DNA from: Pseudidiomarina halophila
GTDB taxonomy: Bacteria; Pseudomonadota; Gammaproteobacteria; Enterobacterales; Alteromonadaceae
Direction: 5' to 3'
NCBI RefSeq assembly: GCF_003987215.1
Contig: NZ_PIPW01000003.1
Span: forward strand, 186,001 to 250,000
DNA: 64,000 bases
Shown: positions 9,733-59,237 of the stretch, piece by piece
Layout of the letters: each line of letters opens with the position of its first letter
Position numbering within the stretch: position 1 is the stretch's first letter
Notes under the pieces: model-generated
What the model saw: only the letters and a program-made list of their open reading frames with translations
What the model was told of the DNA's origin: nothing
Databases searched by the model: none
Position numbers and translations under genes: made by a program

Positions 9733-11433
9733 CTAGGACGACGAGGCATCAAAGCTCGCGCTAGGGCGTCCAAACAGGTAGCCCTGAAAAAACTCGCAGC
9801 CGAGATCCTGCAGCCGCTCGAATTGAGCCTGGGTTTCGACCCCTTCAGCAATGACCGCAAGGTTCATGCTGCGGCCAAGGCTAATGATGGTTTCCGCCAG
9901 CAAGGCGCCTTTGCTCTGGGGTTGTAAATCATTGACAAAGGCGCGATCGATTTTCAGCTCATCAAGGGGCAACTGCGTCAGATAAGCCAATGACGCGTAA
10001 CCTGTGCCAAAGTCATCGAGCGAGAGCGAAATACCGAGCTTCCGCAGTTTTTTCATCTGTTCAATGATGAAGCCAAGGTCATGTGCCATCAGACTTTCGG
10101 TCAGTTCGAAACGCATTTTTTTCGGATCGGCACCGGTGCGGGTAATAATATCCTGCACCCGATCGACGAAATCCGCTTGGCGAAACTGCAGTGAACTGAC
10201 GTTTATCGACAACGATAAGTGTTCGAACTCCGGTCGCTTCGACCACTCCACTAATTTTTCGCCGCAGCTTTGCAAGACCCACTCACCTATTTCAATGATG
10301 CTGCCGTTGGCTTCGGCGATAGGAATAAATTCGGCCGGTGAAATCGCGCCGTACTCCGGATGCTGCCAGCGAAGCAGTGCTTCGCAACTGATTAATTTCT
10401 GGTAGCGGTTCACCTGAGGTTGATAAGCGATCTGGAATTGCTGGTTTCCAACGGCGTGATGCAGAGCTTGTGACAGGTGCAGGCGTTGATGAAGCGACGC
10501 CTCCATTTGTTTATCAAAAAAACTAATGGGCGAGTCAAGCCGCCGCTTGGCGGATTTAAGCGCAATATCCGCCTGAGTTAAAATCGTATTCCCGTCCAGG
10601 TTATGGTTTCGATCAAATAAAGTGATCCCGACGCGAGCATAAAGTTTGTGGGTCTTATTATTGAGTGTCAGTGGTTGCTGTATCTCGTCCAGCACACATT
10701 GCGCTAGCTGCTCTGCTTGTGTCGCCGCCTTAGCAACATCATTTCCCAGATCGGGAAGTAATAATGTGAATTCGTCTTTGCCAAGACGTGCCAGGCCGTC
10801 ACTGGTTTTGGCAAAATTCATTAGACATTTGGCGCAGTGAATAAGCGCCTGATCACCACTTTCATAACCGAGGCTATCATTAATGCTGTGAAAATTATCA
10901 ATATCGATCAGCAACAATGCGCTCATGGTTTTTTCAAAGGGACTGACACCATTGATGGTATTCAACCGCTCGAGGAATAAACGCCGATTCGGTAAATCCG
11001 TCAGGGGGTCAAAATAGGACAGGCGCTGCACTTCTGCCTCGGCGGAGTCGAGTGCGCGTAGGTCAGCGTCCATACAAAACATGATGGGTTCATCGTTGGG
11101 TAAATCGACGACGGTGTGGCTTGAAAAAACCGGGACAGTGGCGCCGGATTTATGTTTTAAGTTCAGCCGTGCCGGTGGAATGCCCCGACGATTTGCGAAC
11201 ATCCAGTCGACATCATGCCGCACCAGGTCGGTCATCCCTTCAGGAATAATGAGCTCAAACAGACTGCCGCCTAAAGCTTCTTCGGCGGAGTAGCCGTAGA
11301 TTTTCTCTGACGCTGCATTCCAGTAAACAACTGTACCATCGGCTCGGTAGCCTTGAATCGACATTGCCTGAGTGTCATCACACAGCTTGCGGAACCTGGC
11401 TTCGCTGATATTTTGCGTGCTTCGTTTGGGCAT
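9733..11433 (-). CDS. PAS-GGDEF(degenerate)-EAL c-di-GMP phosphodiesterase
   Basis: A soluble 566-residue protein. Residues about 10-120 are a PAS sensor (ADGTVVYWNAASEKIYGYS). Residues about 140-300 are a GGDEF domain whose signature reads GKDEF (context RLGKDEFTLLL) with no RxxD site, so cyclase activity is doubtful and a GTP-sensing role is more likely. Residues about 315-560 are an EAL domain with the key motifs intact: EALLRWQHP, INVSSLQF, FELTES, DDFGTGYASLAYL, LKIDRAF and AEGVET. Degradation of c-di-GMP is therefore expected. It is divergent from the monooxygenase operon. Confidence 0.93.
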   Translation of the reverse strand: MPKRSTQNISEARFRKLCDDTQAMSIQGYRADGTVVYWNAASEKIYGYSAEEALGGSLFELIIPEGMTDLVRHDVDWMFANRRGIPPARLNLKHKSGATVPVFSSHTVVDLPNDEPIMFCMDADLRALDSAEAEVQRLSYFDPLTDLPNRRLFLERLNTINGVSPFEKTMSALLLIDIDNFHSINDSLGYESGDQALIHCAKCLMNFAKTSDGLARLGKDEFTLLLPDLGNDVAKAATQAEQLAQCVLDEIQQPLTLNNKTHKLYARVGITLFDRNHNLDGNTILTQADIALKSAKRRLDSPISFFDKQMEASLHQRLHLSQALHHAVGNQQFQIAYQPQVNRYQKLISCEALLRWQHPEYGAISPAEFIPIAEANGSIIEIGEWVLQSCGEKLVEWSKRPEFEHLSLSINVSSLQFRQADFVDRVQDIITRTGADPKKMRFELTESLMAHDLGFIIEQMKKLRKLGISLSLDDFGTGYASLAYLTQLPLDELKIDRAFVNDLQPQSKGALLAETIISLGRSMNLAVIAEGVETQAQFERLQDLGCEFFQGYLFGRPSASFDASSS

Positions 11434-30318: not shown

Positions 30319-33300
30319 ATGCAAAATAATCAGCTTACCGCATTAAATGTTATTGGCATCGGTGCCTCAGCAGGCGGGCTTGAGGCTGTCTCAAAGCTAC
30401 TCCAACATCTGCCGGAATCGATTCCGGCAGCATTAGTTATTTTGCAACATTTGTCACCTGACTATGAAAGCGTGATGGCAGAGATTCTTGGGCGCGAAAG
30501 TAAACGTAAGGTGATTGAACTGACCTCAGATACGCTGCTCGAAGCTGGCGGTATCTATCTGGTACCCCCGGGCTATCACGCCAGCTATGCCGACGGTAAG
30601 GCCGTACTGCAAAAGGCAAAAGCAGAGGTTTCGGTAAAACCCTCGGTAAACACTTTCTTTGCTTCGCTGGCAGCGCAACTACGAGAACGTGCCATAGGCA
30701 TTGTGCTTTCGGGGACCGGCTCGGACGGTACCTCAGGTTTGCGTGCCATTCAGGCTGCAGGCGGTATTGCCATTGTCCAGGAGCCGGCTGAGGCGAAATA
30801 CGATGGCATGCCACGTTCGGCAATCTTAGCCGACGCCGCTGACTTTATTCTTCCGGTGGCCGAAATCGCAGAAAGAATGAATGAGTTTTGTAAACTGGCT
30901 GATGTCCATGAGATGCAGGAAACAGCCCAGTTAAAACGTCTGATTAAATTAGTAAAAGCGTCCATCGGTCATGATTTTTCTGGTTATAAGCAGGCAACGC
31001 TGTTACGTCGTATTAAACGGCGAATGGCGGCTACGGAAAATGCATCCATGGATGACTATCTCACTTATCTGGAGACACATAAAAAGGAAGTGTCTTTGCT
31101 GGGGCGTGACTTGCTGATTTCGGTGACGACGTTCTTTCGTGATCCAGCATCCTTTGCCCGTTTCAGCCAGGTGTTGACTGACTACTATCAGAGCAACACT
31201 GAGCTCGCCGAGTGGCGCGTATGGATTGCCGGTTGTGCTACCGGCGAGGAAGCTTACTCGGTGGCGATTCTAATGGCAGAGTTGATGCTCGCAGAAGGCA
31301 TTGACAAGCAAGTGCAGTTATTTGCCACAGATATTGACGAACAGGCGCTGAAGATTGCCCGACGCGGCCGTTACAGTAAAGGTGCATTGACTGAAGTCGA
31401 TGAGCAGTTTATTTCCCGTTATTTCGTGGAAGACGGCGACTACTATGAAGTAGGAAAGAAATTACGCGATATGGTGGTGTTCGCCAAGCATAACCTGGTC
31501 AGTGATCCGCCCTTTATGCGGGTAGATTTTATCACTTGTAGAAACGTATTGATCTACTTCGATGCGGAGTTGCAACAGCGAGTACTCAAACGCTTTCATT
31601 TTGCTCTCAACAGCAATGGTTGCATGTTTCTGGGCCGATCAGAGAGCGTCGGCACAGAAGATGACCTATTCACCGTGCTTGATCGCAATCAGCGCCTGTT
31701 TTGTAAGTCAGCGCAGTTAACACAAGCAAAATCAGCGTCGTCGACCCGCCCGCTTACATCAACACAGAGGAAGAGCAATGTTGCTCATGACCACAAGCTG
31801 TTAAGTGCGATTACTAAAGAGCTTGGTTGGATTATCGTCGAGTTAAATAGCAAGCACAGAATCAAGCGCAGCTGGGGTAATGTCGGCCAGTTCTTTGAGC
31901 TTCCCGAGGATCAAGCTGAAAGCCCGGTGCAGGACGCTATAACAACAGCGTTTCGATCAGAGCTTATTACCCTGTTACATCGGTTCCAGCGCCAACCTCA
32001 GTTGCTTGAAGGACAACGCCAGGAGCTCGACGGCGAAGGCTGGCAGTTGCTGATTCTGCCGCTAAAAACCGCAGTGCAATCGTTACCGGTCGTGGTATTA
32101 CGACCCTTTGGTATGCACAGCGTCATGCACAGCAAAGACAGTTCGATAACAACCGATGATGAACAAACTAACTGGTTACAGGAAGAACTTGTAGCGACCA
32201 AGGAGTACTTGCAAAGAGTGTTGGAAGAGCTGGCAAGCTCAAACGAAGAAATGCAGTCGCTTAATGAAGAGTCGCAAGTATCCAATGAACAGTTGCAAGC
32301 GAGTAATGAAGAGCTTGAAGCTGCAAATGAAGAGCTTCAGACCAGCAACCAAGAGTTACTGAGTCTGAATCAGGAACTGAATAGCCGCACACATCAGCTG
32401 GCTAAACTCAACGAAGAATACACGCACGTTTACGATGCTCTCGATTTCCCTATTCTGGTGTTTAACCGCGAGGCACGACTGCAACGTTTCAATGCTGCTG
32501 CCCAGCGCATGTTCGGTCTGCGCCAGAACATGCAGCAACGTTTACTCAGCAAACTGAAGTTCCCGAGTTATTTGCAGGACACAGTGAAAACACTGGCTCA
32601 AGCTGCGCTGGCGACCAGTGATGTGCAACAGCACTGGTGCCGCGACCGTGACCAGGTAATGCAAGTCACGGTAGCGCCGGGGTTGGGGTCGAAAGAAACG
32701 ATTGAAACCCTGTTGCTTACCTTCATCGATGTCACTGATATTGCGCAGGCGCATGAACAGCTGCGAGCCTCACAAGAACAACTGAATAAAATTTTGACCA
32801 ACACTACAATTTTGCTGGCGATGAAGGATCTGAGCGGGCACTACTCACTGGTCAATCCGCAGTTTTGTGAGAGTTTCTCAGTTGCCGAAGAACAAGCGAT
32901 AAAACACACTGATTTTGATCTGTTTCCGCATGCATTCGCCAGCGCTGTATGGGAGCATGATTTACGCGCATTACGCGAACTCGAACCCGTTGTTGCTGAA
33001 CACACCTATCAGTTAAACGACGGTAGTAAACGTATTTTCCGCATTGTCCACCAGGCGCTAACCGATACTAGCGGTAAGGCTTATGCGATCCTTAACGAAG
33101 CCGAAGACATCACAATCAAAAAGAACGCCGAACAGCAGTTGCAGATCGCTGCCCGGGTTTACGAACAAGCCGGAGAAGCGATCGTGGTGTTGGATGCAGA
33201 GGGTCAGGTGCAAACGGTAAACACAGCGTTCTTAAAGCTGACTCATGAAACCGAAGAGAAAATCGTGCTGCGCTCGTTCTGGCAGTTGTTGGGGAGTTCA

Positions 33301-48090: not shown

Positions 48091-49620
48091 ATGTCTATGA
48101 GTCCCGATGAACTGCACTTGCAATTACGCAATCTGCGCAAAGAAGATTACCCGCAATTAAAAGCATTGATGGATAAGGTGTATACGGATATCGGCGGAAG
48201 CTGGGGTGAACACACCATACAAAAGCTGGTGAAAGAATTTCCTGAAGGCCAGATTCTGTTAGAAGATAACGGTCAACTGGTTGGCGTGGCGCTTACCGTG
48301 CGGGTGAAGTATGCACGTTTCAGTAACCCGCATACCTACGAAGACTTGATGGATGCACGAGAGAATATTCTCAATGATCGCAAAGGCGACGCGCTGTATG
48401 GATTAGACGTACTAATTCATCCTGATTATCGTGGTTTCCGGCTGGGCAGGCGCTTGTATGATGCGCGTAAAGAGCTTTGCCGCCAACTGAACTTAAAAGC
48501 CATTTTAGCCGGTGGCCGGATCGTCAACTTCCATAAATACGCAGACGAACTGACCCCCGGGCAATACATTGAAAGTGTTCATCGCCGTGAAATTTACGAT
48601 CCGATCTTAACCTTTCAGCTGGCCAATGACTTTACTGTGAAGCGCTTACTCGGCAAATATTTGCCTGAAGATAAGCGCTCCGAAGGTTTTGCTACACTGC
48701 TTGAGTGGAATAACTTTTTATACGAGCCGTCGGATAATATTTTAGGTAGCCGGATCCGTAACGTGCGTATCGGTGCGGTGCAATGGCAGATGCGTGAAAT
48801 CGATTCGGTGGAAGAAATGCTCAAGCAGGTGGAGTACTTTGTCGATGCAATGTCGAACTACCAAAGTGACTTTGCCGTCTTCCCTGAATTCTTTAATGCG
48901 CCGCTTATGGGGCTAACGGATCAGAGCCAGCAAAAAGATGCGATTCGCTTTCTGGCCGGTTACACGGAACGCTTTAAGCGCGAAATGTCGCAAATGGCGG
49001 TCAGTTACAACGTCAATATCATCACTGGCTCGATGCCACTCGACGAAGACGACGTTATCTATAACGTATCCTACTTATGTCGCCGTGATGGCACCGTGGA
49101 AGAACAGCGCAAAATACATGTCACCCCGCACGAGAAGCGCGACTGGGTTATCGAAGGTGGCAATCGGGTGCAAGTTTTCGATACTGATGCGGGCAAAATC
49201 GGCATCCTTATCTGTTATGACGTCGAATTTCCTGAGCTGGGACGGATCATGGCAACCGAAGGCTTAGAGATTCTGTTCGTACCTTTCTGGACCGATACCC
49301 GTAATGCGTATCTGCGAGTGCGGCATTGTGCTCAAGCGCGCGCCGTAGAAAATGAATGTTATGTGGTCACTTGTGGTAGCGTCGGTAATCTGCCGCAGGT
49401 GGAAAGTCTGGACGTGCAGTACGCGCAGTCCGCCGTATTCTCACCGTCGGACTTTGCTTTCCCTTATGATGCGATTCTGGCGGAAACGACGCCAAATACC
49501 GAGCAGCTGATCTTCTCTGATCTAAACTTAGATGAATTGCGGTATTTACATCACGAGGGGTCAGTGACGAATTTGAAAGACAGAAGAACAGACATCTACG
49601 AAGTCACCAGGAAATGGTAA
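48091..49620 (+). CDS. GNAT acetyltransferase-carbon-nitrogen hydrolase fusion
   Basis: A 509-residue two-domain protein. Residues about 5-200 form a GNAT domain (LDVLIHPDYRGFRLGRRLYDARKEL is the acetyl-CoA loop). Residues about 225-500 form a nitrilase-superfamily amidase with the Glu-Lys-Cys triad visible in FPEFFNAP, RKIHVTPHEK and LICYDVEFPE. This domain pair recurs in bacteria, but I know of no firmly established substrate. Either ATG at 48091 or 48097 could start it; AAAGG lies six bases before the second. The gene is single and divergent from the metT-like gene. Confidence 0.9.
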   Translation: MSMSPDELHLQLRNLRKEDYPQLKALMDKVYTDIGGSWGEHTIQKLVKEFPEGQILLEDNGQLVGVALTVRVKYARFSNPHTYEDLMDARENILNDRKGDALYGLDVLIHPDYRGFRLGRRLYDARKELCRQLNLKAILAGGRIVNFHKYADELTPGQYIESVHRREIYDPILTFQLANDFTVKRLLGKYLPEDKRSEGFATLLEWNNFLYEPSDNILGSRIRNVRIGAVQWQMREIDSVEEMLKQVEYFVDAMSNYQSDFAVFPEFFNAPLMGLTDQSQQKDAIRFLAGYTERFKREMSQMAVSYNVNIITGSMPLDEDDVIYNVSYLCRRDGTVEEQRKIHVTPHEKRDWVIEGGNRVQVFDTDAGKIGILICYDVEFPELGRIMATEGLEILFVPFWTDTRNAYLRVRHCAQARAVENECYVVTCGSVGNLPQVESLDVQYAQSAVFSPSDFAFPYDAILAETTPNTEQLIFSDLNLDELRYLHHEGSVTNLKDRRTDIYEVTRKW

Positions 49621-49630
49621 AAAAACAAGA

Positions 49631-49699
49631 GCGTTATTGGTTCACAGATATTAGTTAGTGGTTGAAACCTAATAACTGATATCTAATAACTAATAACGC
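49631..49699. repeat. 69-base imperfect palindromic repeat element
   Basis: Left arm begins GCGTTATTGGTT, right arm ends CTAATAACTAATAACGC. The two arms of about 33 bases pair with a few mismatches around a GAA loop. It lies between the GNAT-nitrilase stop and the acyl-CoA synthetase, 23 bases before the latter's ATG. The same sequence family forms the larger array at 56185-56442. It has no coding potential and no flanking transposase. Confidence 0.85.
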
Positions 49700-49721
49700 A
49701 GTTGCATTTTAAGGAGCTATT

Positions 49722-51371
49722 ATGGCTGTGAAACTGATACCACCAGCGGATGAAGCTTACAACTACCCGCTACTTATCAAGCAGTTGCTGTTGTCCGCGG
49801 AACGTTATGGCGGCGATAACGAAATTGTTGGCGGCAATAACGGTAAACGTTACAGCTATAGTGAATTCATTGAGCGGGTGCACCGTTTAGCTAACGTGCT
49901 GACCGAGGCCGGCGTTAAAGAAGGCGATACCGTTGCCGTGCTGGACTGGGATACTCCACGCTACTTAGAGTGTTTTTTTGCTGTTCCCATGATTGGTGCA
50001 GTGCTGCATACGGTAAACGTGCGTCTGGCGCCTGAACAGGTTGTATACACCATGAATCATGCCAAAGATGATCTGGTGTTGGCGCATGACGATTTCCTGC
50101 CGTTACTTGCAAAGGTGCAGGGCGAACTGACGACAGTGAAAGGCTATATTCAGCTGAGCGATGAAGCGCAGGCTGCTCCCGCGGGTCTGGAAACTCTGGG
50201 TGAGTACGAGGATTTACTTGCCGGCGCCTTAACCGAGTTCGACTTTCCTGATTTTGATGAAAACGCAATTGCCACCACGTTTTACACCACAGGCACTACG
50301 GGCAATCCCAAAGGCGTATTTTTCTCCCATCGTCAGCTTGTGCTGCATACCCTGGCGTTAGCGGCGACCACCAGTATGAATGACAACATGCAGCTGATGC
50401 AGTCGTCGAGTGTGTACATGCCGATTACGCCAATGTTTCACGTACACGCCTGGGGTGTGCCTTATGTGGCAACCATGATGGGGCTGAAACAGGTTTATCC
50501 GGGGCGTTATGAGCCGGCGACACTGCTGAAACTCTTCATGACCGAGAAAGTGACCTTCTCGCACTGTGTGCCAACTATTTTGCAAATGGTGCTGAGTAGT
50601 GAGAAAGCGAAAGCCATCGACTTCAGCGGTTGGCAGGTGCTGATTGGTGGCAGCGCGTTGACTGAAGGTTTAGCTAAGGCGGCACTCGAGCGCGGTATTC
50701 AGATTTATACGGGTTATGGCATGTCGGAAACCTGTCCACTGCTAAGTACCACCTGGTTACCGCTTGGTGCAGAAGACTTTGATCTTGAACAACAGGTACG
50801 TACCCGCGTGAAGACCGGCAAACCTGTGCCCTTGGTGAATATGCGTATTATTGACAGTAATGGTCGCTTCCTGCCCCACGATGGCGAAGCTATGGGTGAA
50901 GTAGTCGTACGCACCCCCTGGTTGACCCAGGGGTACTTGCATGAGCCTGAGAAAAGCGCTGAGCTGTGGGAGAATGGCTGGATGCACACCGGCGATGTAG
51001 GCAGTATCGATAGCAGCTACACGCTGCAAATTCGTGACCGCATTAAAGATGTCATTAAAACCGGTGGCGAATGGGTGTCGTCGCTGGATATTGAAAACCT
51101 GATTAGCCAACACCCTGACATTGAATTATCTGCTGTGGTCGGGTTGCCTGACGATGAATGGGGTGAGCGTCCCCACGCGGTGATCACCGCCCGTGCTGGT
51201 GCTGAGGTCGATCATGCGGCAGTGGTTCAACACATGCAGAGCTTTGTTGACGAGGGCTTAATCGAGAAATGGGCAATTCCTGATACCATCAAAGTGGTGG
51301 ACGAAATTCCGCGAACCAGCGTTGGCAAAGTGGATAAAAAACTGATCCGCAGCCAGTTGCAGGACGACTAA
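49722..51371 (+). CDS. AMP-forming acyl-CoA synthetase
   Basis: A 549-residue member of the ANL superfamily that activates a carboxylic acid via an acyl-AMP to acyl-CoA. The P-loop is YTTGTTGNPKGVFFSHRQ near residues 184-201, followed by YTGYGMSETCPLL and WMHTGDVGSID. The hinge IKDVIKTGGEWVSS precedes the C-terminal catalytic lysine K536 in PRTSVGKVDKK. Medium- or long-chain fatty acids are plausible by similarity to the dimethylmenaquinone/medium-chain ligase group. AAGGAG precedes the ATG. An HDAC-like gene converges on it with four bases overlap. Confidence 0.92.
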   Translation: MAVKLIPPADEAYNYPLLIKQLLLSAERYGGDNEIVGGNNGKRYSYSEFIERVHRLANVLTEAGVKEGDTVAVLDWDTPRYLECFFAVPMIGAVLHTVNVRLAPEQVVYTMNHAKDDLVLAHDDFLPLLAKVQGELTTVKGYIQLSDEAQAAPAGLETLGEYEDLLAGALTEFDFPDFDENAIATTFYTTGTTGNPKGVFFSHRQLVLHTLALAATTSMNDNMQLMQSSSVYMPITPMFHVHAWGVPYVATMMGLKQVYPGRYEPATLLKLFMTEKVTFSHCVPTILQMVLSSEKAKAIDFSGWQVLIGGSALTEGLAKAALERGIQIYTGYGMSETCPLLSTTWLPLGAEDFDLEQQVRTRVKTGKPVPLVNMRIIDSNGRFLPHDGEAMGEVVVRTPWLTQGYLHEPEKSAELWENGWMHTGDVGSIDSSYTLQIRDRIKDVIKTGGEWVSSLDIENLISQHPDIELSAVVGLPDDEWGERPHAVITARAGAEVDHAAVVQHMQSFVDEGLIEKWAIPDTIKVVDEIPRTSVGKVDKKLIRSQLQDD

Positions 51372-52285
51372 ATCAAGCCTTTGATAAATGCGACCACACT
51401 TCTGCCCAGGGAGCTGTGGTCGTAACCACCTTCTAGCATAGCAAGCACCCGGCCGCCGCAGTGTCGTTCAGCCATTTCCTTTAGTCTTTTTGCGATCCAG
51501 AGATAATCTTCTTCGCGCAGATTAAAATTACCCATGTCATCTTCCGCATGGCCATCGAATCCTGCGGAAACCAGAATGAGTTCAGGTTTGAAATGGTCGA
51601 TGGCGGGCAACCAGCGGTTTTTAACCTCGGTGCGCCATTCGCTACCACCGGTGCCGGCCGGCATGGGACTATTAATAATATGCGGGCTGATGGTGTCGGC
51701 CCCAGTGTCAGGATAGAAAGGGTGCTGAAAGGAAGAGCAAAGCAAAACGCGCTCGTCACCCATGAAAATATCTTCAGTGCCGTTGCCATGGTGTACGTCA
51801 AAATCAATGATAGCGACTCGCTCAAGGTCATAATTTGCCATGGCATAGGTTGCCGCCACAGCTATATTGTTAAAAATGCAGAAGCCCATAGCTTGATCAT
51901 GGGTAGCATGGTGACCCGGCGGGCGTACCACACAAAACGCGCGGGCATTCTCCCCCTGCATGACTTCATCCACGGCATTGATGCCACAGCCCGCAGCATA
52001 AAGCGCAGCTTGCAGGGAGCCCGGTGTCATTAAGGTGTCCGGGTCGAGCCAGACGTGGCCTTCGGTCGGTGCTTTGTTGAAGATCTCATTGACGTAATTG
52101 ACGTCATGGGCGTGATACAACTGCTCTTGCGTTGCGGGGGTACCATCGCGTTGGCTGATAGCCAGTTCCAGTCCGGAGCGAATAATCTGATCATTAATAG
52201 CGCTTAACCGCGCCGGTTCCTCAGGATGAATTTCGGTAACCTGGTGTTGCATACAAGCAGGATGACTAAATACAGTGATCGACAT
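51368..52285 (-). CDS. histone-deacetylase-family hydrolase
   Basis: A 305-residue zinc hydrolase of the HDAC/AcuC/acetylpolyamine amidohydrolase superfamily. Catalytic elements are RPPGHHATHDQAMGFC (two histidines), DFDVHHGNGTED (metal-binding Asp and His), SAGFDGHAEDDMG (second metal Asp) and EGGYDHSSL. It removes acyl groups from lysine side chains or small amines. The convergent acyl-CoA synthetase overlaps it by four bases, and a CoA-transferase-GNAT gene lies two bases upstream on the same strand. Confidence 0.92.
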   Translation of the reverse strand: MSITVFSHPACMQHQVTEIHPEEPARLSAINDQIIRSGLELAISQRDGTPATQEQLYHAHDVNYVNEIFNKAPTEGHVWLDPDTLMTPGSLQAALYAAGCGINAVDEVMQGENARAFCVVRPPGHHATHDQAMGFCIFNNIAVAATYAMANYDLERVAIIDFDVHHGNGTEDIFMGDERVLLCSSFQHPFYPDTGADTISPHIINSPMPAGTGGSEWRTEVKNRWLPAIDHFKPELILVSAGFDGHAEDDMGNFNLREEDYLWIAKRLKEMAERHCGGRVLAMLEGGYDHSSLGRSVVAFIKGLI

Positions 52286-52286
52286 A

Positions 52287-54146
52287 TTACGACTCGTCGG
52301 TTAAGGCTAGTTTCAGATGAACCTCGCCGGGCTCTTCACTGGGCAGACGCTTAAAGCCTGCCCGCTCAAATACCGTTAACATTTTATTATTTTCCGCGCG
52401 GACGTAGGCCACCATATGCGCTAAACCTCGCAACCTGGCGATACGGATCATTTCATCTAACAAGCGGCTGGCCATGCCCTTGCCCTGGTGGATTTCACGG
52501 GTGACAAAAGCGACTTCACAACTGTTATCCGCAGGCACGTAGTAGTAACGACCTACGGCTTGTATTTCTGCCGCAGAACCTTTCTGCCGCACGATACACA
52601 AGGCTAAATCGGTGGCTTGATCAACACTTACCAGAGTACAGGATTTCTCCCGACTCATTTGCGTAGGCACAGTGTTGTAACGCATTTGCAGGGTTTCTTT
52701 CGTATGCGAGTAAAAAAACTCCTGTAACCGGCGCTCGTCACTTGGATTAAGTGGACGTAAATCGTAGAACTCACCTGCGATATTCAGTTCTTTGAAACCA
52801 ACATCACCTAATTCGGGTACCTCGACGGACTTGATCGTCTGATAGTTGGGTACATGATAGTGCTGGCGTACTTCGTCGAGTAACTGCTGACGAAATTTGG
52901 GGTGGGCAACACGGATCAATTCCAGCGCGCGTTCACGGATACTTTTGCCGCGTAGCGACGCGACACCAAATTCGGTGACCACATAATAGACATGGGCACG
53001 GGAGGTGGCCACACCCACGCCTTCGGTCAAATGCGGGACGATACGCGAAATGGTACCGTCTTTCGCGGTCGACGGCAGGGCAATCACGGGTTTACCGCCC
53101 TTACTCATCGATGCTCCGCGGCTGAAATCGACATGACCGCCGATACCACTGTAGAACTGATGGCCTATGGAATCAGAAACCACCTGACCGGTGAGGTCGA
53201 CTTCGATGGCACTATTGATGGAAATCATAGTGTCATTGCGGGCAATATTGGCGGGCGAATTGACATATTCACTGGGGTAGAAGCCGATATGAGGATTGCC
53301 GTCCACGAAGTCATATAAAGCTTTGCTGCCGATACAAAAGCTGGTCACGGTTTTGTGTTGATGGTACGTCTTCCGGCGGTTATTGATGACACCATTTTGC
53401 ATAAGTTCCATGATGCCATCGGTAATCATTTCGCTGTGCACGCCAAGGTCTTTATGGTTCCCAAGATAGCGCAACACCGCGTCGCATATATTGCCAAAGC
53501 CAATTTGTATGGTAGCGCCATCTTCAACCAGTAAGGACACATACTGACCGATGCGCTCGGTAACCGCATCCAGTTCCGTCGTTGCAATTTCAGGTAAGTC
53601 AGCTTCAGCATCGAAGAACGCATCAATTTGGCCTTTGTGAATAAAAGCCTGACCAAAGGTAACCGGCATTTTGGGATTGACCTGAGCGATCACTTTTTTC
53701 GCTGAACGTAGTGCTGCCGAAACAATATCGACGGAGACCCCCAGCGAGTGGTAGCCGTATTCATCTGCCGGACTGACCATGATCAGTGCGGCATCCAACG
53801 GGAGTATGCCGTCCTGAAACAATGAGGGAATGTCTGACATAAAACAGGGGGTGTAATCGGCACGTCCTTCCGCGACAGCGCGGCGCACTTGCGGCCCGCC
53901 TATGAACAGCGTATTCACCTTGAATTGTTGCGTGTATTCGGGTTCTGCCCAGGTGTTATCGCCAAGCGCATACACTTGCACGATTTCAATATCGTGCAAG
54001 TGCTGGCTATGGGCACTGAGGTCAGCAATGAGCGCATGTGGCACGGCAGCATGAGAACCAATGAAGATTCGACTGCCTGATTTCAGCAACTGCGGCCAGT
54101 GAATGGTTTTGCCTTCACTGCGCAGGCTTCCGTGTTGCGCGCTCAT
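52287..54146 (-). CDS. acetyl-CoA hydrolase/transferase-GNAT fusion
   Basis: A 619-residue two-domain protein. Residues about 5-430 are a class I acetyl-CoA hydrolase/CoA-transferase (IGFGNICDAVLRYLG, YSGIGGHVDFSRGA, EFGVASLRGKS). Residues about 455-615 are a GNAT acetyltransferase (GKGMASRLLDEMIR is the acetyl-CoA-binding loop). The start is taken as ATG at 54146 because AAGAGGA lies seven bases upstream; an ATG two codons earlier is too close to it. It sits directly before the HDAC-like gene, so acyl transfer and deacylation functions are encoded together. Confidence 0.9.
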   Translation of the reverse strand: MSAQHGSLRSEGKTIHWPQLLKSGSRIFIGSHAAVPHALIADLSAHSQHLHDIEIVQVYALGDNTWAEPEYTQQFKVNTLFIGGPQVRRAVAEGRADYTPCFMSDIPSLFQDGILPLDAALIMVSPADEYGYHSLGVSVDIVSAALRSAKKVIAQVNPKMPVTFGQAFIHKGQIDAFFDAEADLPEIATTELDAVTERIGQYVSLLVEDGATIQIGFGNICDAVLRYLGNHKDLGVHSEMITDGIMELMQNGVINNRRKTYHQHKTVTSFCIGSKALYDFVDGNPHIGFYPSEYVNSPANIARNDTMISINSAIEVDLTGQVVSDSIGHQFYSGIGGHVDFSRGASMSKGGKPVIALPSTAKDGTISRIVPHLTEGVGVATSRAHVYYVVTEFGVASLRGKSIRERALELIRVAHPKFRQQLLDEVRQHYHVPNYQTIKSVEVPELGDVGFKELNIAGEFYDLRPLNPSDERRLQEFFYSHTKETLQMRYNTVPTQMSREKSCTLVSVDQATDLALCIVRQKGSAAEIQAVGRYYYVPADNSCEVAFVTREIHQGKGMASRLLDEMIRIARLRGLAHMVAYVRAENNKMLTVFERAGFKRLPSEEPGEVHLKLALTDES

Positions 54147-54172
54147 CAGCATATCCTCTTTAGTTGCGGAGT

Positions 54173-55459
54173 TTATTTTGAGTAGTCAAACACCCAGTTG
54201 ACGTACATTTCAGTACCAACTTTCAGCGCTGCTTCGTCAGCGTAAAAATAAGGTGAGTGATTACTTGGCGCGGTTGCCGGGTCCTGACCTTCCGGCGTGA
54301 CGCCCAAGAAAACGAACAATCCAGGCACTTCCAGCGCATAGAACGAGAAGTCCTCAGCGCCAGTGATTAGCGGACTGACAACCACTTTATCGGCACCGGC
54401 AACCCGCTTCATAGTAGGCAACATCTGTTCGGTCAGCTCGGCGTCATTCACGGTCACCGGATAGCCTTCGTCGATGTGGACATGCGCTTCTGCACCTGAG
54501 CTCTTCGCGGTGTGTTCAGCAGTGGTTTTCAGGTCCTCAAAAATTTGCGCGCGATTATCCATATCGAAGTTACGAATCGTCCCTTCAAGATAAACCTCAT
54601 CAGGGATAATGTTGTTGCGCACACCGCCATCAACGATACCAAAACTGACAACGGCCGGGCCGTTGGTAATGTTGGTTTGACGACTGATAATAGTTTGCGT
54701 GTTATTGATAATTTGCGCTGCTGCAACAATAGGATCTACACCACCCCATGGACGTGAACCGTGGGTCTGCACGCCTTGCACATTGATTTCAAAGCGATCG
54801 GCAGACGCCATTAATGGTCCGCTGCGGTAGGCAATATAACCCGTTGGGGCAGAGGAACCGACGTGAATTCCGAATACAGCGTCCGGCTTAAGGTCAGCGA
54901 AAAGCCCTTCTTCGAGCATTAACTCAGCGCCGCCTTCTTCACCCTTTGGTGCGCCCTCTTCAGCGGGCTGGAAGATAAACATCACAGTGCCGGCGATGTC
55001 TTCGCGCATAGCGGTTAATTTCTCTGCTGCGCCCATCAACATGGCAATGTGCATATCGTGGCCGCAAGCATGCATAACGCCGACTTCTTCACCGCGATAT
55101 TCAGTGGTTACTCTGGACTTAAAAGGTACATCCGTGCGTTCGGTGACCGGCAGGGCATCCATGTCGGCGCGCAAAGCAACCACAGGACCCGGCTTACCAC
55201 CTTTTAAAATACCTACCACGCCGGTATGTGCGATGCCTGTTTGCACGTCCATGCCAAGCTCGCGTAAATGTTCGGCAACGATTTTCGACGTGCGGAACTC
55301 GCGATTACTCAATTCAGGGTTTTGGTGAAAGTCACGTCGCCATTCGATGACTTGTGACTCAAGGTCCGCAGAAATACGCACGGGATCTTGGGCGAAGCTG
55401 GCATGACTTGCCAGCAAACTTGTAACACAGGCTAGCGCCAGAGCGGTAGGTTTCAACAT
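54173..55459 (-). CDS. exported M20 amidohydrolase/peptidase
   Basis: A 428-residue metalloenzyme with a signal peptide (ALACVTSLLASHASFAQ), so probably periplasmic. The metal-binding HACGHDMHIAMLMGAAEKL and the catalytic FQPAEEGAPKGEEGG are clear, and SPLITGAEDFSFYA near the C-terminus gives the remaining metal ligand context. A dimerisation domain lies between about 205 and 320. Family members cleave N-acyl amino acids, hippurate or related amides. It lies 27 bases upstream of the CoA-transferase-GNAT gene on the same strand. Confidence 0.9.
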   Translation of the reverse strand: MLKPTALALACVTSLLASHASFAQDPVRISADLESQVIEWRRDFHQNPELSNREFRTSKIVAEHLRELGMDVQTGIAHTGVVGILKGGKPGPVVALRADMDALPVTERTDVPFKSRVTTEYRGEEVGVMHACGHDMHIAMLMGAAEKLTAMREDIAGTVMFIFQPAEEGAPKGEEGGAELMLEEGLFADLKPDAVFGIHVGSSAPTGYIAYRSGPLMASADRFEINVQGVQTHGSRPWGGVDPIVAAAQIINNTQTIISRQTNITNGPAVVSFGIVDGGVRNNIIPDEVYLEGTIRNFDMDNRAQIFEDLKTTAEHTAKSSGAEAHVHIDEGYPVTVNDAELTEQMLPTMKRVAGADKVVVSPLITGAEDFSFYALEVPGLFVFLGVTPEGQDPATAPSNHSPYFYADEAALKVGTEMYVNWVFDYSK

Positions 55460-55517
55460 GACAATGTACCTTGCAGGTTTGGGTTAAGAACGTGTCTTGA
55501 GTATGCCCTGAACCTTG

Positions 55518-56159
55518 TTAATTTGCCAATGCGTCTTTGGTCGCAAGTTCAACAAATAATCCGTACTCAGGTAATGGTGCGGTGGCGTGTATTTGCGCGC
55601 CCTGATAACTGAAGGCCAGTTGCCAGGCGTGCAGATGCAGATAGGCATGGGGTTCACCGCCATAGCGGTGATCACCAACGATAGGGACACCGAGACTTTT
55701 TAGCGCGACCCGTAGTTGATGGGTTTTGCCAGTGCCTGGCTCTAGGCGGTAATAGCGATAGCCGGGACAGAGTGATTCACTGCTAAAATAGGTACGTGCC
55801 GGATTCTTTTTACTGTGCAATAAACGCCATCCGCCACGCCGGGATTTTGCCATATCACCGATCACCCAACCTTGCTTTTTCTTTGGTTTTCCAGCGGCAA
55901 TGGCCAGATAGGTTTTGTTCATTTGTCTATCGGCAAACAGTTGGCTTAACTCTGCCGCTGCGGCTGCATTACGTGCTACCAGCAGCGCGCCGGAAGTAGG
56001 CGTGTCGAGCCGGTGGACCGGCCACAGTTCTTCCTGCAATTGGTGGGCCAGCTGATGAACTACGCTTAACTCTTCGGTATTGGCATGCATAGGTGCCCCT
56101 GCTGGCTTATTCAACACATAAAAATCAGTATGTTGAAATACTAGGGTTAGCTCGCGCAT
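55518..56159 (-). CDS. RluA-family pseudouridine synthase
   Basis: A 213-residue RNA-modifying enzyme without an S4 domain. The catalytic motif is VHRLDTPTSGALLVAR, which has the essential Asp, preceded by VLNKPAGAPMH and followed by EPGTGKTHQLRVALKSLGVP and GDHRYGG. Size and motif place it with short single-domain members such as TruC/RluA. The exact RNA target is open. The long repeat array starts just upstream. Confidence 0.88.
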   Translation of the reverse strand: MRELTLVFQHTDFYVLNKPAGAPMHANTEELSVVHQLAHQLQEELWPVHRLDTPTSGALLVARNAAAAAELSQLFADRQMNKTYLAIAAGKPKKKQGWVIGDMAKSRRGGWRLLHSKKNPARTYFSSESLCPGYRYYRLEPGTGKTHQLRVALKSLGVPIVGDHRYGGEPHAYLHLHAWQLAFSYQGAQIHATAPLPEYGLFVELATKDALAN

Positions 56160-56184
56160 ACCGTTATACTCCTGAACAACAAAA

Positions 56185-56297
56185 GCGTTATTGGATACTA
56201 GATATTAGTTATTAGAAGAACAAAAGCGTTATTGGATACTAGATATTAGTTATTAGAAGAACAAAAGCGTTATTGGATACTAGATATTAGTTATTAG
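56185..56297 (+). repeat. three 41-base direct repeats (left half of array)
   Basis: Three copies beginning GCGTTATTGGATACTAGATA at 56185, 56226 and 56267, so the period is exactly 41 bases; the first two are identical and the third changes after its shared 31 bases. The unit is the left-arm type of the 69-base palindrome at 49631. With the right half at 56312-56442 it fills most of the 298 bases between the RluA-type gene and trmH. Confidence 0.92.
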
Positions 56298-56311
56298 TTG
56301 AAACAAAACAC

Positions 56312-56442
56312 CCAATAACTGATATCTAATAACGCTCTAGGATTTTAATATCCAATAACCGATATCTAATAACGCTCTAAGGTTTTAACATCCAATAACT
56401 GATATCTAATATCTAATAACTAATATCTAATAACTAATAACG
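56312..56442 (+). repeat. inverted half of the array (three copies, period 40)
   Basis: Copies starting CCAATAAC[CT]GATATCTAATA at 56312, 56352 and 56392, spaced exactly 40 bases, are the reverse complement type of the units at 56185-56297. The last copy degenerates into short TAATATCTAATAACTAATAA runs that end 15 bases before the trmH ATG. The whole array can fold into one long hairpin or several nested ones. Confidence 0.9.
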
Positions 56443-56457
56443 AACTTGGTTTTCTCT

Positions 56458-57138
56458 ATGTCGCCGGAACGATTTGCTCGAATTAATGCACTGCTTGATC
56501 GCCGACAGGCCGATCTTACCCTTTGCCTTGAGAGTGTCCATAAAAATCACAATCTGTCTGCACTGATTCGTACCGCCGACGCAGTTGGCCTGCATGAAGT
56601 TCATGCCGTCTGGTTTGATCGCCGCGGAAAAGTAAAAGGTGGCACTGCTATGGGCTCACAGCAGTGGGTTAAGGTGCATCATCACCCATCTACTGAGGCT
56701 GCCATTGCGCAGCTCAAAGCTGAGGGGAAGCAGGTTCTGGTCACCCAGTTATCTGGTACTGCCATTGATTTTCGTGAGGTTGATTACACTAAGCCAACGG
56801 CGATTTTACTGGGTCAGGAAAAGCAGGGGGTATCGGCCGATGCCCTGCGTCTGGCTGACCAGCATATAGTGATCCCCATGGTCGGTATGGCGGAGTCGTT
56901 GAACGTATCGGTCGCCGCCGCGGTGATCTTATACGAAGCGCAGCGCCAGCGTGAAGCTGCGGGCTGTTACCAGAGGTCAAATCTGGATCCGGCGGAACGC
57001 CATCGGGTATTGTTTGAGGGCGGGCATCCAATTTTTGCCAAGATCTGCCGGCGTAAAAACTTGCCGTATCCTGAGTTGGATGAGCGTGGCCAGATTGTTG
57101 CTGACGACGCCTGGTGGCAGGCGGTGAGGTCCAGTTAA
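56458..57138 (+). CDS. trmH: tRNA (guanosine-18-2'-O)-methyltransferase
   Basis: A 226-residue SPOUT-fold enzyme methylating G18 in the tRNA D-loop. Family elements are ESVHKNHNLSALIRTADAVG, ILLGQEKQGVS, and MVGMAESLNVSVAAAVILYEA, which together form the SAM-binding knot; the C-terminal extension reads YPELDERGQIVADDAWW as in E. coli TrmH. I start at the ATG at 56458 (MSPERFARI, matching the family) rather than a TTG at 56446. The gene begins right after the repeat array and ends two bases before recG. Confidence 0.95.
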   Translation: MSPERFARINALLDRRQADLTLCLESVHKNHNLSALIRTADAVGLHEVHAVWFDRRGKVKGGTAMGSQQWVKVHHHPSTEAAIAQLKAEGKQVLVTQLSGTAIDFREVDYTKPTAILLGQEKQGVSADALRLADQHIVIPMVGMAESLNVSVAAAVILYEAQRQREAAGCYQRSNLDPAERHRVLFEGGHPIFAKICRRKNLPYPELDERGQIVADDAWWQAVRSS

Positions 57139-57140
57139 CT

Positions 57141-59237
57141 ATGGCAACAGAAAGAATGGCGAACCAAGGCTTACATCGTATTCCGCTGTCGGTACTCAAG
57201 GGTGTTGGACCCAAGTTGCAGGAGCGGATGGCGAAACTCGGCCTGGCAACCATACAGGATGTGTTGTTGCATTTGCCTTTGCGTTACGAAGATCGCTCAC
57301 GTATTTATCCTATAGCAGCACTGCAACCGGGAACCACGGCAACGGTTATTGCAGCAGTGGTGAAAGCTGAAGTGGTTTATGGCCGCCGGCGGATGCTCAA
57401 AGTAAGAGTTCAGGATGCCAGTGGCGGGCTAAACCTTGTGTTTTTCCAGTTTAGTGCAGCCCAATTAAAGCAGTTTGAGCAAGGTACCCGGTTACAGTTA
57501 TTTGGCGAAGCCCGGCGCGGTCTGCAGGGCCCCGATATGATTCACCCGGAATACAAAATAATCACCGGAGCGGCGCCGGAACTTGCCGAAAGTTCGCTGA
57601 CACCTGTGTACCCAACCACTGAGGGAGTGCAGCAGGCCACCTTAAGAAAGATAAGTGAGCAAGCACTAACTTACCTGACCGATAAAGCATTGCCGGAGCT
57701 AATGCCTGAGCAACTGCAACCCAACGGCATGGGGTTGGCGGCGGCGATCCGGTTATTACACCGCCCGCCACTGGACGTCAGTTTGGGTGAACTGCAGGAT
57801 GGGACGCACCCAGCGCAAGAGCGTCTGGCGATGGAAGAGTTGGTTGCGCATCAGTTGAGCCTACTAAAATTGCGCGCCATCAAACAACAGCATCAGGCGC
57901 GATCACTGCAACCCCACTCGCAGTTGCAACAAGAGTTTTTGAGTCGCCTGCCCTTTAAGCCAACTGCCGCTCAGCAACGTGTGGTGAATGAAATTCAGCA
58001 GGATTTATCTGAACCGATTCCGATGATGCGACTGGTGCAGGGCGATGTCGGATCGGGCAAAACTCTGGTCGCTGCGTTAGCGGCTCTGACCGCAATCGGG
58101 CAGGGGTATCAGGTGGCATTAATGGCGCCGACTGAAATACTTGCTGAGCAACACGCGCTGACCTTCCAGCAATGGTTTGCGCCACTCGGCATTCAGGTGG
58201 GCTTTTTAATGGGTAAGCAAAATGCCAGACAGCGCAAAGGGAATCTTGCTGCGCTGGCCAGTGGCGAACTTAATATGGTGGTCGGTACCCATGCATTATT
58301 TCAGGCTGATGTTGCGTATCACAATCTGGTGCTGGTGATCATTGATGAACAACACCGCTTTGGCGTTCACCAACGTCTTGGCTTGCGTGAAAAAGGTGTG
58401 CAACAGGGGTATCAGCCGCACCAGCTGATCATGACGGCAACACCTATACCGCGTACCTTAGCTATGACCGCTTATGCCGATTTAGCCACCTCAATAATTG
58501 ATGAGTTGCCTCCCGGGCGGACTCCGGTCACCACGGTGGCCGTGCCGGATACCCGGCGTGACCAGGTGATTACCCGGGTGCACGATGTCTGCGTCAAAGA
58601 AAAACGCCAGGCCTATTGGGTCTGTACCCTGATAGAAGAATCGGAAGCATTACAGTGCCAGGCTGCTGAAGATAGTGCGAACCAACTTGCTGAAGCGCTG
58701 CCGGATCTGCGAATTGGTCTGGTCCATGGTCGCCTGAAAAGCGCCGAGAAAGAAGCTGTGATGCAGGCGTTTAAGGCGCACGAGTTGGATCTGCTGGTAG
58801 CGACGACCGTGATTGAGGTCGGTGTTGATGTGCCCAATGCCAGTTTGATGATCATCGAAAACCCGGAGCGGCTGGGGCTGGCGCAATTGCATCAGTTACG
58901 CGGCCGGGTGGGGCGTGGCGCCGTAGCCAGTCATTGTGTGTTGCTTTATCATGCGCCGTTATCGAAAACTGCAACCCAGCGATTGGGTGTGCTGCGTGAC
59001 AGCAACGATGGCTTTGTTATTGCCCAACGCGATCTCGAATTACGCGGACCGGGGGAGTTACTTGGCCAGCGGCAAACCGGGGTGACCGAAATGAAGGTTG
59101 CTGACGTAATGAAACATAACTACCTGCTGGATGATGCACAACAGTTAGCGCAACAATTATGGCAGCAGTATCCAGAGACTTCGGAAGCGTTAATTCAACG
59201 CTGGTTACCCCGTCGTGACCACTACGCCCAGGCGTAA
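57141..59237 (+). CDS. recG: ATP-dependent DNA helicase RecG
   Basis: A 698-residue helicase that remodels stalled forks and branched DNA. The wedge/OB domain occupies about 1-270. Walker A is GDVGSGKTLVAALAAL, the DExH box is IIDEQHRFGV, motif III is MTATPIPRTL, and the C-terminal helicase half has VATTVIEVGVDVPNA and QLRGRVGRG. The start is the ATG at 57141, two bases after the trmH stop. The trmH-recG pair is conserved, although it is separated here from spoT. Confidence 0.96.
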   Translation: MATERMANQGLHRIPLSVLKGVGPKLQERMAKLGLATIQDVLLHLPLRYEDRSRIYPIAALQPGTTATVIAAVVKAEVVYGRRRMLKVRVQDASGGLNLVFFQFSAAQLKQFEQGTRLQLFGEARRGLQGPDMIHPEYKIITGAAPELAESSLTPVYPTTEGVQQATLRKISEQALTYLTDKALPELMPEQLQPNGMGLAAAIRLLHRPPLDVSLGELQDGTHPAQERLAMEELVAHQLSLLKLRAIKQQHQARSLQPHSQLQQEFLSRLPFKPTAAQQRVVNEIQQDLSEPIPMMRLVQGDVGSGKTLVAALAALTAIGQGYQVALMAPTEILAEQHALTFQQWFAPLGIQVGFLMGKQNARQRKGNLAALASGELNMVVGTHALFQADVAYHNLVLVIIDEQHRFGVHQRLGLREKGVQQGYQPHQLIMTATPIPRTLAMTAYADLATSIIDELPPGRTPVTTVAVPDTRRDQVITRVHDVCVKEKRQAYWVCTLIEESEALQCQAAEDSANQLAEALPDLRIGLVHGRLKSAEKEAVMQAFKAHELDLLVATTVIEVGVDVPNASLMIIENPERLGLAQLHQLRGRVGRGAVASHCVLLYHAPLSKTATQRLGVLRDSNDGFVIAQRDLELRGPGELLGQRQTGVTEMKVADVMKHNYLLDDAQQLAQQLWQQYPETSEALIQRWLPRRDHYAQA

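Follow-up and report, generated by a model that had tools for sequence, protein, structure and literature searches.

A heptad-based inverted repeat of Pseudidiomarina with shared places, genome-specific arm sequence and a multiplied copy upstream of trmH

Introduction

The closest described counterparts of the element reported here are short repeats with a 7-bp unit. In Xanthomonas, heptamers of the type GGGAATC/GGGANTN occur preferentially as four units, are over-represented between genes and also within 50 bp of stop codons, and share their gene context across two species in 83% of cases; two genomes contain 70 and 75 pairs of repeats that face each other. According to the excerpted text, no other gammaproteobacteria were found to carry such G-rich repeats (Rehm et al. 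2015, PMC4692102). Excerpts on marine Beggiatoaceae describe the AT-rich and mostly intergenic 7-mer TAACTGA as repeating in direct arrays; one case is inverted, and most arrays point to a start codon and end near it (MacGregor 2015, PMC4679880). In REP sequences, each unit is defined by a palindrome preceded on its 5′ side by the tetranucleotide GT(A/G)G (excerpts of PMC3686654). REPINs are intergenic pairs of facing units, and different REP classes flank orthologous RAYT genes in related strains (excerpts of PMC3686654 and PMC3116915). For the DNA uptake sequences of the Neisseriaceae, excerpts report dialects, in which the genome-wide spelling differs between related species (PMC3630211).

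We analyzed a 64,000-nt stretch of the Pseudidiomarina halophila genome (hereafter the window), which carries an array of facing repeats upstream of trmH, and followed this repeat through its own genome and through congeners. Its nearest known relative is the Xanthomonas GGGAATC family, with which it has in common, as far as that family is described in the excerpts, the four units, the facing pairs, the places common to species and the proximity to stop codons. It differs from this family in its AT-rich steps without four G tracts, in the presence of a GCG cap and a leader, and in a spelling that differs between congeners at shared places. Since the Pseudidiomarina steps are AT-rich and lack four G tracts, G-quadruplexes cannot be the shared basis. 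The TAACTGA repeats resemble the element as an AT-rich 7-mer of similar letters found mostly between genes, but cap, leader and facing halves are not described for them in the excerpted text (PMC4679880). Like REPINs, the element consists of intergenic facing pairs; unlike REPINs, its units lack GTAG, are not self-palindromic and show no link to the RAYT of the genome. A genome-wide spelling differing between related species also likens it to the Neisseriaceae dialects as excerpted. DNA uptake sequences, however, are about 10-12 bp long and number in the thousands, whereas the Pseudidiomarina element has a 41-bp unit and tens of places. No description of this family was found in the open-access literature searched.

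Results

Architecture of the array upstream of trmH

A repeat block occupies most of the gap between a divergent gene for an RluA-like pseudouridine synthase (55518..56159, minus strand; TIGR01621, 232.4 bits with a cutoff of 222.3) and trmH (56458..57138, plus strand; NF008295, 372 bits with a cutoff of 227), which encodes tRNA (guanosine(18)-2′-O)-methyltransferase. The original prediction of an array filling this gap holds for most of it, not for all. A repeat search of the window returned three direct copies with spacings of 41 and 41 at 56174-56307 and a second unit at 56307-56426 with spacings of 40 and 40, whose copies are 88% and 73% identical to its first; the right side also has a fourth copy, 28 out of step. 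Tandem Repeats Finder (TRF) reported a period of 41 with 3.0 copies (score 241) and a period of 40 with 2.6 copies (score 175). The block upstream of trmH is real, and its predicted layout of three direct units followed by three inverted ones was confirmed, with 41-bp units followed by units of about 40 bp. The left and right sides are inverted repeats of each other (best arms 44 nt, 82% complementary), and an inner 7-bp period runs through the arms. With one mismatch allowed, TAATAACTAATAT occurs seven times in the window, five of these within the array, compared with 0.05 in dinucleotide shuffles.

The array resolves into three left half-elements on the plus strand (56175..56215, 56216..56256 and 56257..56297) and three right half-elements on the minus strand (56305..56345, 56345..56385 and 56392..56453). 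The first on the left, direct repeat D1 (arm profile score 48.6), consists of a 10-bp leader, GCG and four 7-bp steps, and its arm recurs in the second and third, which were each found by repeat search, TRF and arm profile. Identity of the first two units, as noted before, extends to the 31-nt arm of the third left unit. The right units are diverged: the first (repeat search, arm profile) has the lowest arm score of the array (29.6), the second, also found by the repeat search, scores 36.6, and the third, whose leader is at 56444-56453, carries additional 7-bp steps and is matched twice by the arm profile, in overlap, at 56392 (score 45.1) and at 56413 (score 49.6). Since the 41-bp period matches a single half-element, the locus upstream of trmH represents one element whose halves were multiplied, and the earlier idea of a palindromic element expanded in tandem on both arms proved right.

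Anatomy of the half-element

Starting from a typed 31-nt consensus as seed, an iterated profile gathered 89 arms in an ungapped alignment; locus L129 is a duplicate of a window copy, and its two arms were dropped, leaving 87 arms in later counts. The half-element spans 41 bp and comprises the leader AAnnnCAARA, GCG and four 7-bp steps, each opening with G-H-T (step consensus about GHTANYR); two halves face each other across a short spacer. Among the nine G/T positions of the steps, eight are kept in 86 or 87 of the 87 arms and the last G in 78. Conservation sets in about 10 bp before GCG, where information at the leader edge is 0.8-1.4 bits at -10/-9 and below 0.3 bits further out, and fades past arm position 30 at the inner edge (1.4 bits at position 30, below 0.5 beyond).

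Four is the commonest number of steps in capped arms. It is found in 48 of 79 arms of the own genome, a figure aided by the arm-finding route, in which both the four-step seed and the starting search with the window array favor this form, and in 66 of 156 arms in the gaps of other genomes, a figure without such aid. Base use differs among steps 1-4 at the second base (chi-square 175, p 4e-35) and at the seventh base (chi-square 56, p 3e-10), indicating that the arms copy a common model and not one heptamer repeated. One capped arm has 15 steps.

The own genome has 62 outer edges, and 28 of them have an upstream same-strand frame of at least 100 codons with its stop within 200 nt; gene calls for these stop distances, as well as for the orientation and gap counts below, are longest-frame heuristics. 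The stop ends 8-16 nt before GCG at 15 of the 28 edges, 22-43 nt before it at five and more than 60 nt at eight. At a distance of 8-16 nt the conserved AA of the leader often falls within the stop codon.

Copies in the own genome

The proposed search of the whole genome turned out to be informative: with the array as query, at least 66 matches were found, and the copies gathered from them make up 32 element segments, including the two of the window. Scoring covered 40 of the 47 candidates, and we therefore claim no clustering of copies along the chromosome. The second of these (49621..49709; unit search, arm profile, stop-codon distances) represents the simple form, with arms at 49631-49661 on the plus and 49669-49699 on the minus strand. 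It starts directly after the stop codon of the upstream gene, which ends at 49620, and its neighbors are a gene whose product combines a carbon-nitrogen hydrolase with an acetyltransferase domain and a gene for an AMP-binding enzyme. The 41-bp step behind the tandem expansion recurs at two further loci, L110 (1350/1391) and L112 (1061/1102), which makes three with the window, and L128 has tandem halves with a longer step of 50 bp. The four-step pattern matches the own genome 45 times and its backward control 0 times. Elsewhere in the window, at 32263-32337, a 21-bp tandem repeat is present in 3.5 copies.

A heptad cluster lies on contig C1 at 1269328-1269540 of 1270043, about 500 bp before the contig end, and another on contig C6 at 111-335, about 110 bp after the contig start, with similar flanks. 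Because C1 ends and C6 starts beside such clusters, heptad arrays may break assemblies. An orientation preference was rejected: a first count seemed to give only ++ among co-directional pairs, but compared with the gaps on contig C3 this excess is not striking, because the C3 stretch mostly contains + genes (184 of 255). No similar DNA was found in plasmid and phage collections at E 1e-5, and carriage by a plasmid or phage was rejected on this ground.

Gene context and the trmH promoter

Downstream of trmH lies recG (NF008163), and the closest relatives of trmH include those of P. terrestris (88%) and P. homiensis (85%). Upstream of the array, at 56165..56170 on the plus strand, we found the motif TATACT, the likely -10 box of trmH. 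All 22 related loci inspected have it within 300 bp upstream of trmH. Its position is -32 to -47 in the 16 loci that lack a full element, among which P. terrestris retains a remnant, -112 to -135 in the five that carry one, and -85 in P. sediminum, where the gap sequence is unclear. Since a consensus promoter scan does not report TATACT, its assignment to the trmH promoter is based on this conservation. There is no stop codon at the edge of the trmH array, and the block is located downstream of TATACT; it probably lies between the -10 box and the start codon and lengthens the trmH mRNA leader. Promoter or terminator function of the element itself was rejected, as consensus scans stayed at background level, and no terminator-like site is present in 56050-56600. 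Comparison of the filled and empty trmH gaps of the close relatives P. homiensis and CB1 revealed no target duplication by eye.

Folding and pairing of facing arms

The array had been suggested to form a long hairpin. It does fold strongly: the array strand reaches -87.5 kcal/mol, with a z of -10.8 relative to 100 dinucleotide shuffles. The hairpin as the point of the structure was weakened by the comparison of facing arms, since in 29 facing pairs 22.8 of 31 positions are identical within a locus compared with 22.9 between loci (permutation p 0.73). Among transition mismatches, 49 are G.U-compatible versus 41 A.C, with loci taken as + strand transcribed that were picked by hand from neighboring gene calls. 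Taken together, the lack of within-locus coupling and the small G.U bias indicate that hairpin pairing is probably not what is conserved or selected, and an RNA function via paired arms was rejected. A known RNA family was rejected as well, as the covariance models of Rfam 15 gave 0 matches at E up to 1 in the window region 49000-57500.

Comparison with known repeat classes

The arm profile, AAnnnCAARAGCG followed by the steps, contains no GT(A/G)G tetranucleotide as found in REPs. The own genome has a single Y1_Tnp match (C3:610033-610371), which sits among GTAGCCCGTAGTTCTACTACGGG-type REPs, not among heptad arms, and heptad units do not flank the RAYT. We rejected a REP of the tyrosine transposase/RAYT type, as the REPs of this genome are GTAG-tagged and unrelated to heptad arms. 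Ordinary dispersed REP sequence, which the original prediction had named as speaking against it, applies in so far as the element is dispersed; the REPs of the tyrosine transposase form a different, GTAG-tagged family. Unlike in REP-RAYT systems, three copy-rich Pseudidiomarina genomes (G006, G012 and G017, with at least 23, 46 and 56 element matches) have no Y1_Tnp match, G017 being 88% complete. The search for Y1_Tnp yielded no mobilizing gene for the heptad element.

Two inverted units, as in REPINs, are present in the 29 facing pairs, and the facing arms with their leaders form terminal inverted repeats as in MITEs. In a simple heptanucleotide repeat the same 7-mer recurs head to tail any number of times, whereas the steps are position-specific with a mode of four per arm, even though some arms of other genomes are pure runs. 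The arm consensus contains no run of three G and hence lacks the four G tracts that could form a G-quadruplex in repeats of the Xanthomonas type. RptR direct repeats, as described in excerpts of PMC12255303, are unrelated. Integron attC sites and Xer sites were weighed as further alternatives and put aside.

As a separate observation, the region C3:609338-610746 of the own genome (G000; L164 9338-9444 and about 10464-10746) holds GTAGCCCGTAGTTCTACTACGGG-type REPs around the Y1 transposase, some of them as near-identical tandem segments.

Places shared between congeners

Up to 20 congeners, with one genome per species, were examined at seven places where the own genome carries the element, namely T and A within the window and S1 to S5 on contig C3. 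Site sharing is gauged only from such places, and S1-S5 are unreadable in some genomes. As a rule we used three G-H-T steps plus G, which gave 382 matches in 26,233 bp of orthologous gaps; in 50 single-base shuffles the matches averaged 1.1 and never exceeded 4. Counted over readable places, the element is present at 7/7 in P. insulisalsae and P. aquimaris, 6/7 in P. piscicola, 5/7 in P. homiensis, P. marina and P. aestuarii, 4/5 in P. atlantica, 4/7 in P. tainanensis, 3/7 in P. gelatinasegens and G023, 3/6 in P. donghaiensis, 2/7 in CB1, 2/5 in P. sediminum and P. woesei, and 2/4 in P03. With the same rule, no element was found in P. terrestris (0/7), SN11 (0/6), P. planktonica (0/6), P. salinarum (0/5) and the P. 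indica MAG (0/1).

Three syntenic blocks contain 68 element loci in other genomes. Of these, 56 coincide with the seven places; the remaining 12 lie elsewhere, five of them in block B of genomes in which S2 is unreadable (P. atlantica, P. donghaiensis, P. sediminum, P. woesei, SN11). In the blocks of the own genome, these places represent seven of 39 gaps of at least 25 bp according to crude gene calls. The shared places adjoin conserved operons, whose genes are presumably rpoB, rplK, rplU and obg.

Several loci deserve separate mention. At place S2 of P. piscicola (L195), six tandem right half-elements of one spelling form the longest run of halves. Very long runs of the heptamers CCAATAA or CGAATAA are found in G023 at S4 (L228) and S3 (L208), as if slippage had taken over. 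GTAG REPs of relatives occupy heptad gaps at A (L173, L174) and S4/S5 (L216, L213, L224, L226, L227); some of them adjoin heptad remnants, and several supply the TAG stop of the upstream gene, in agreement with excerpts in which the ends of such REPs are frequently the source of a stop codon (PMC3733652). Across the order, the four-step pattern occurs in 78 of 247 sampled genomes, but in many of them so does the backward control, as in plain heptamer repeats. One genome of another family (G145, f6) has 40 four-step matches versus one in the backward control and possibly carries an element of this kind.

Arm sequence follows the genome

Spellings were compared in 94 arms, drawn from those found with the three-step rule, that satisfy the rule with all four steps; each genome contributes one arm per place and strand. 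Arms from the same genome but different places are identical at 24.5 of 31 positions, compared with 21.4 for the same place in different genomes and 21.3 if both differ. When arms were shuffled among genomes within places, 0 of 500 rounds reached the genome effect. The place effect amounts to 0.1 of 31, with p 0.012 for shuffling among genomes within places and p 0.48 for shuffling among places within genomes. Arm sequence follows the genome, not the place.

Whole-genome searches of 26 genomes detected the spelling of the window in at least 14 and that of P. homiensis in at least seven. In the nine genomes with at least 20 window-spelling matches, at most three P. homiensis-spelling matches are found among the matches listed; in the four genomes with at least 15 P. 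homiensis-spelling matches, no window spelling is found among the matches listed. Two spellings occur in some genomes, such as that of P. marina; the own genome has GCTGTTC- and TTATTCG-like copies and holds a few copies outside its main spelling. A tree of seven concatenated proteins places P. terrestris as sister to the window genome, with P. piscicola next, and groups P. insulisalsae with P. aquimaris, CB1 and P. homiensis. The spelling of the window is common to P. insulisalsae, not to the sister P. terrestris, while that of the homiensis group is common to P. piscicola. Since the spellings are incongruent with the tree and minor spellings occur in the own genome, spellings either coexist and rise and fall, or move between lineages.

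Elements interrupted by REPs provide a hint that spellings are replaced in uninterrupted elements. At places A and S5 of P. homiensis and CB1, GTAG REPs are flanked by TTATTCG- or TTGTTCG-like remnants, and at S4 of P. donghaiensis a REP leaves a TTATTCG arm, with P. woesei and P03 being spelled differently there. At S4 of P. homiensis and CB1, the REP-adjacent arm is in the current homiensis spelling. In sum, three REP-interruption events speak for replacement and one against it. A further point against it is the TTATTCG-like arm at S1 of P. donghaiensis.

Discussion

We consider it rather probable that the element is a REPIN-like dispersed intergenic repeat of Pseudidiomarina that is homogenized by some machinery and that was multiplied on both sides at trmH. 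We infer a trans-acting machinery that would read the half-element by its G and T at 7-bp spacing and copy it. New copies would take over already occupied places, by which a genome would drift to one main spelling while its places persist. The 3 + 3 form probably arose by head-to-tail duplication in steps of one half-element, separately on each side, because the left arms are identical and the right arms differ. At trmH, the block would give the trmH-recG mRNA a leader with a long folded stretch, probably as a by-product.

The 7-bp period within the arms would also be expected of a simple heptanucleotide repeat grown by polymerase slippage, with the inversion arising by chance or by template switching. 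In most genomes with an abundance of long simple repeats, heptanucleotides outnumber the other unit lengths (Mrazek 2007, as cited in excerpts of PMC4679880), and the many genomes of the order that match both the four-step pattern and its backward control, as well as the long pure runs in G023, are in line with this explanation. Slippage acts on these elements as well, as seen from the long runs of one 7-mer in G023 and the capped arm with 15 steps. As the origin of the family it is decidedly unlikely, given the GCG cap and leader, the four-step mode, the step-specific base use and the 45 pattern matches against 0 backward matches in the own genome; template switching in particular is at odds with facing arms that are not locally coupled. 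If the near-invariant G-H-T positions among otherwise variable ones were instead contacted by a chromosome-organizing or regulatory protein that touches G and T every 7 bp, selection would keep the sites and they would be respelled when the protein changes, which would also fit shared places beside conserved operons. This we regard as unlikely, because many sites would need to change jointly between near relatives and because P. terrestris, SN11, P. planktonica and P. salinarum have, by the three-step rule, no element at their readable places, indicating that the sites are dispensable.

Selection could likewise act on RNA structure, with a hairpin that stabilizes or regulates mRNA, for example in trmH translation, and pairing kept for this purpose. 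The strong fold, the location of the array between the likely -10 box and the trmH start codon, and the stop codons 8-16 nt before GCG at 15 of 28 edges, the usual place for 3′ stabilizers, are consistent with such a role; the uncoupled facing arms, the near balance of G.U and A.C mismatches, the absence of Rfam matches at E up to 1 and of terminator-like sites in 56050-56600 make it quite unlikely. A homogenized, REPIN-like repeat is the reading that we favor over these three.

A broader version of this reading is possible, though we hold it to be doubtful. It would be a "dialect" system, in which an enzyme or recombination recognizes G-N-T every 7 bp and rewrites or replaces arms chromosome-wide, so that places stay occupied and switch to one main spelling; the facing four-unit heptamers of Xanthomonas would then be another dialect. 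If this were true, G-quadruplex formation would be irrelevant to the origin of the Xanthomonas repeats. By analogy, the Xanthomonas parallel is close enough to suggest one architecture with different spellings, for which G-quadruplexes would not be needed.

Dispersed bacterial repeats are usually ascribed to transposition (REP, MITE) or to slippage (simple repeats). The Pseudidiomarina element has places that are shared like an old insertion and a sequence that is genome-specific like a fresh spread, and neither transposition nor slippage explains both. The four-unit heptamers of Xanthomonas, which have been discussed as G-quadruplexes, may be part of a wider architecture that exists without G runs. 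With its tens of defined places, this small genus of marine bacteria allows the question to be tested.
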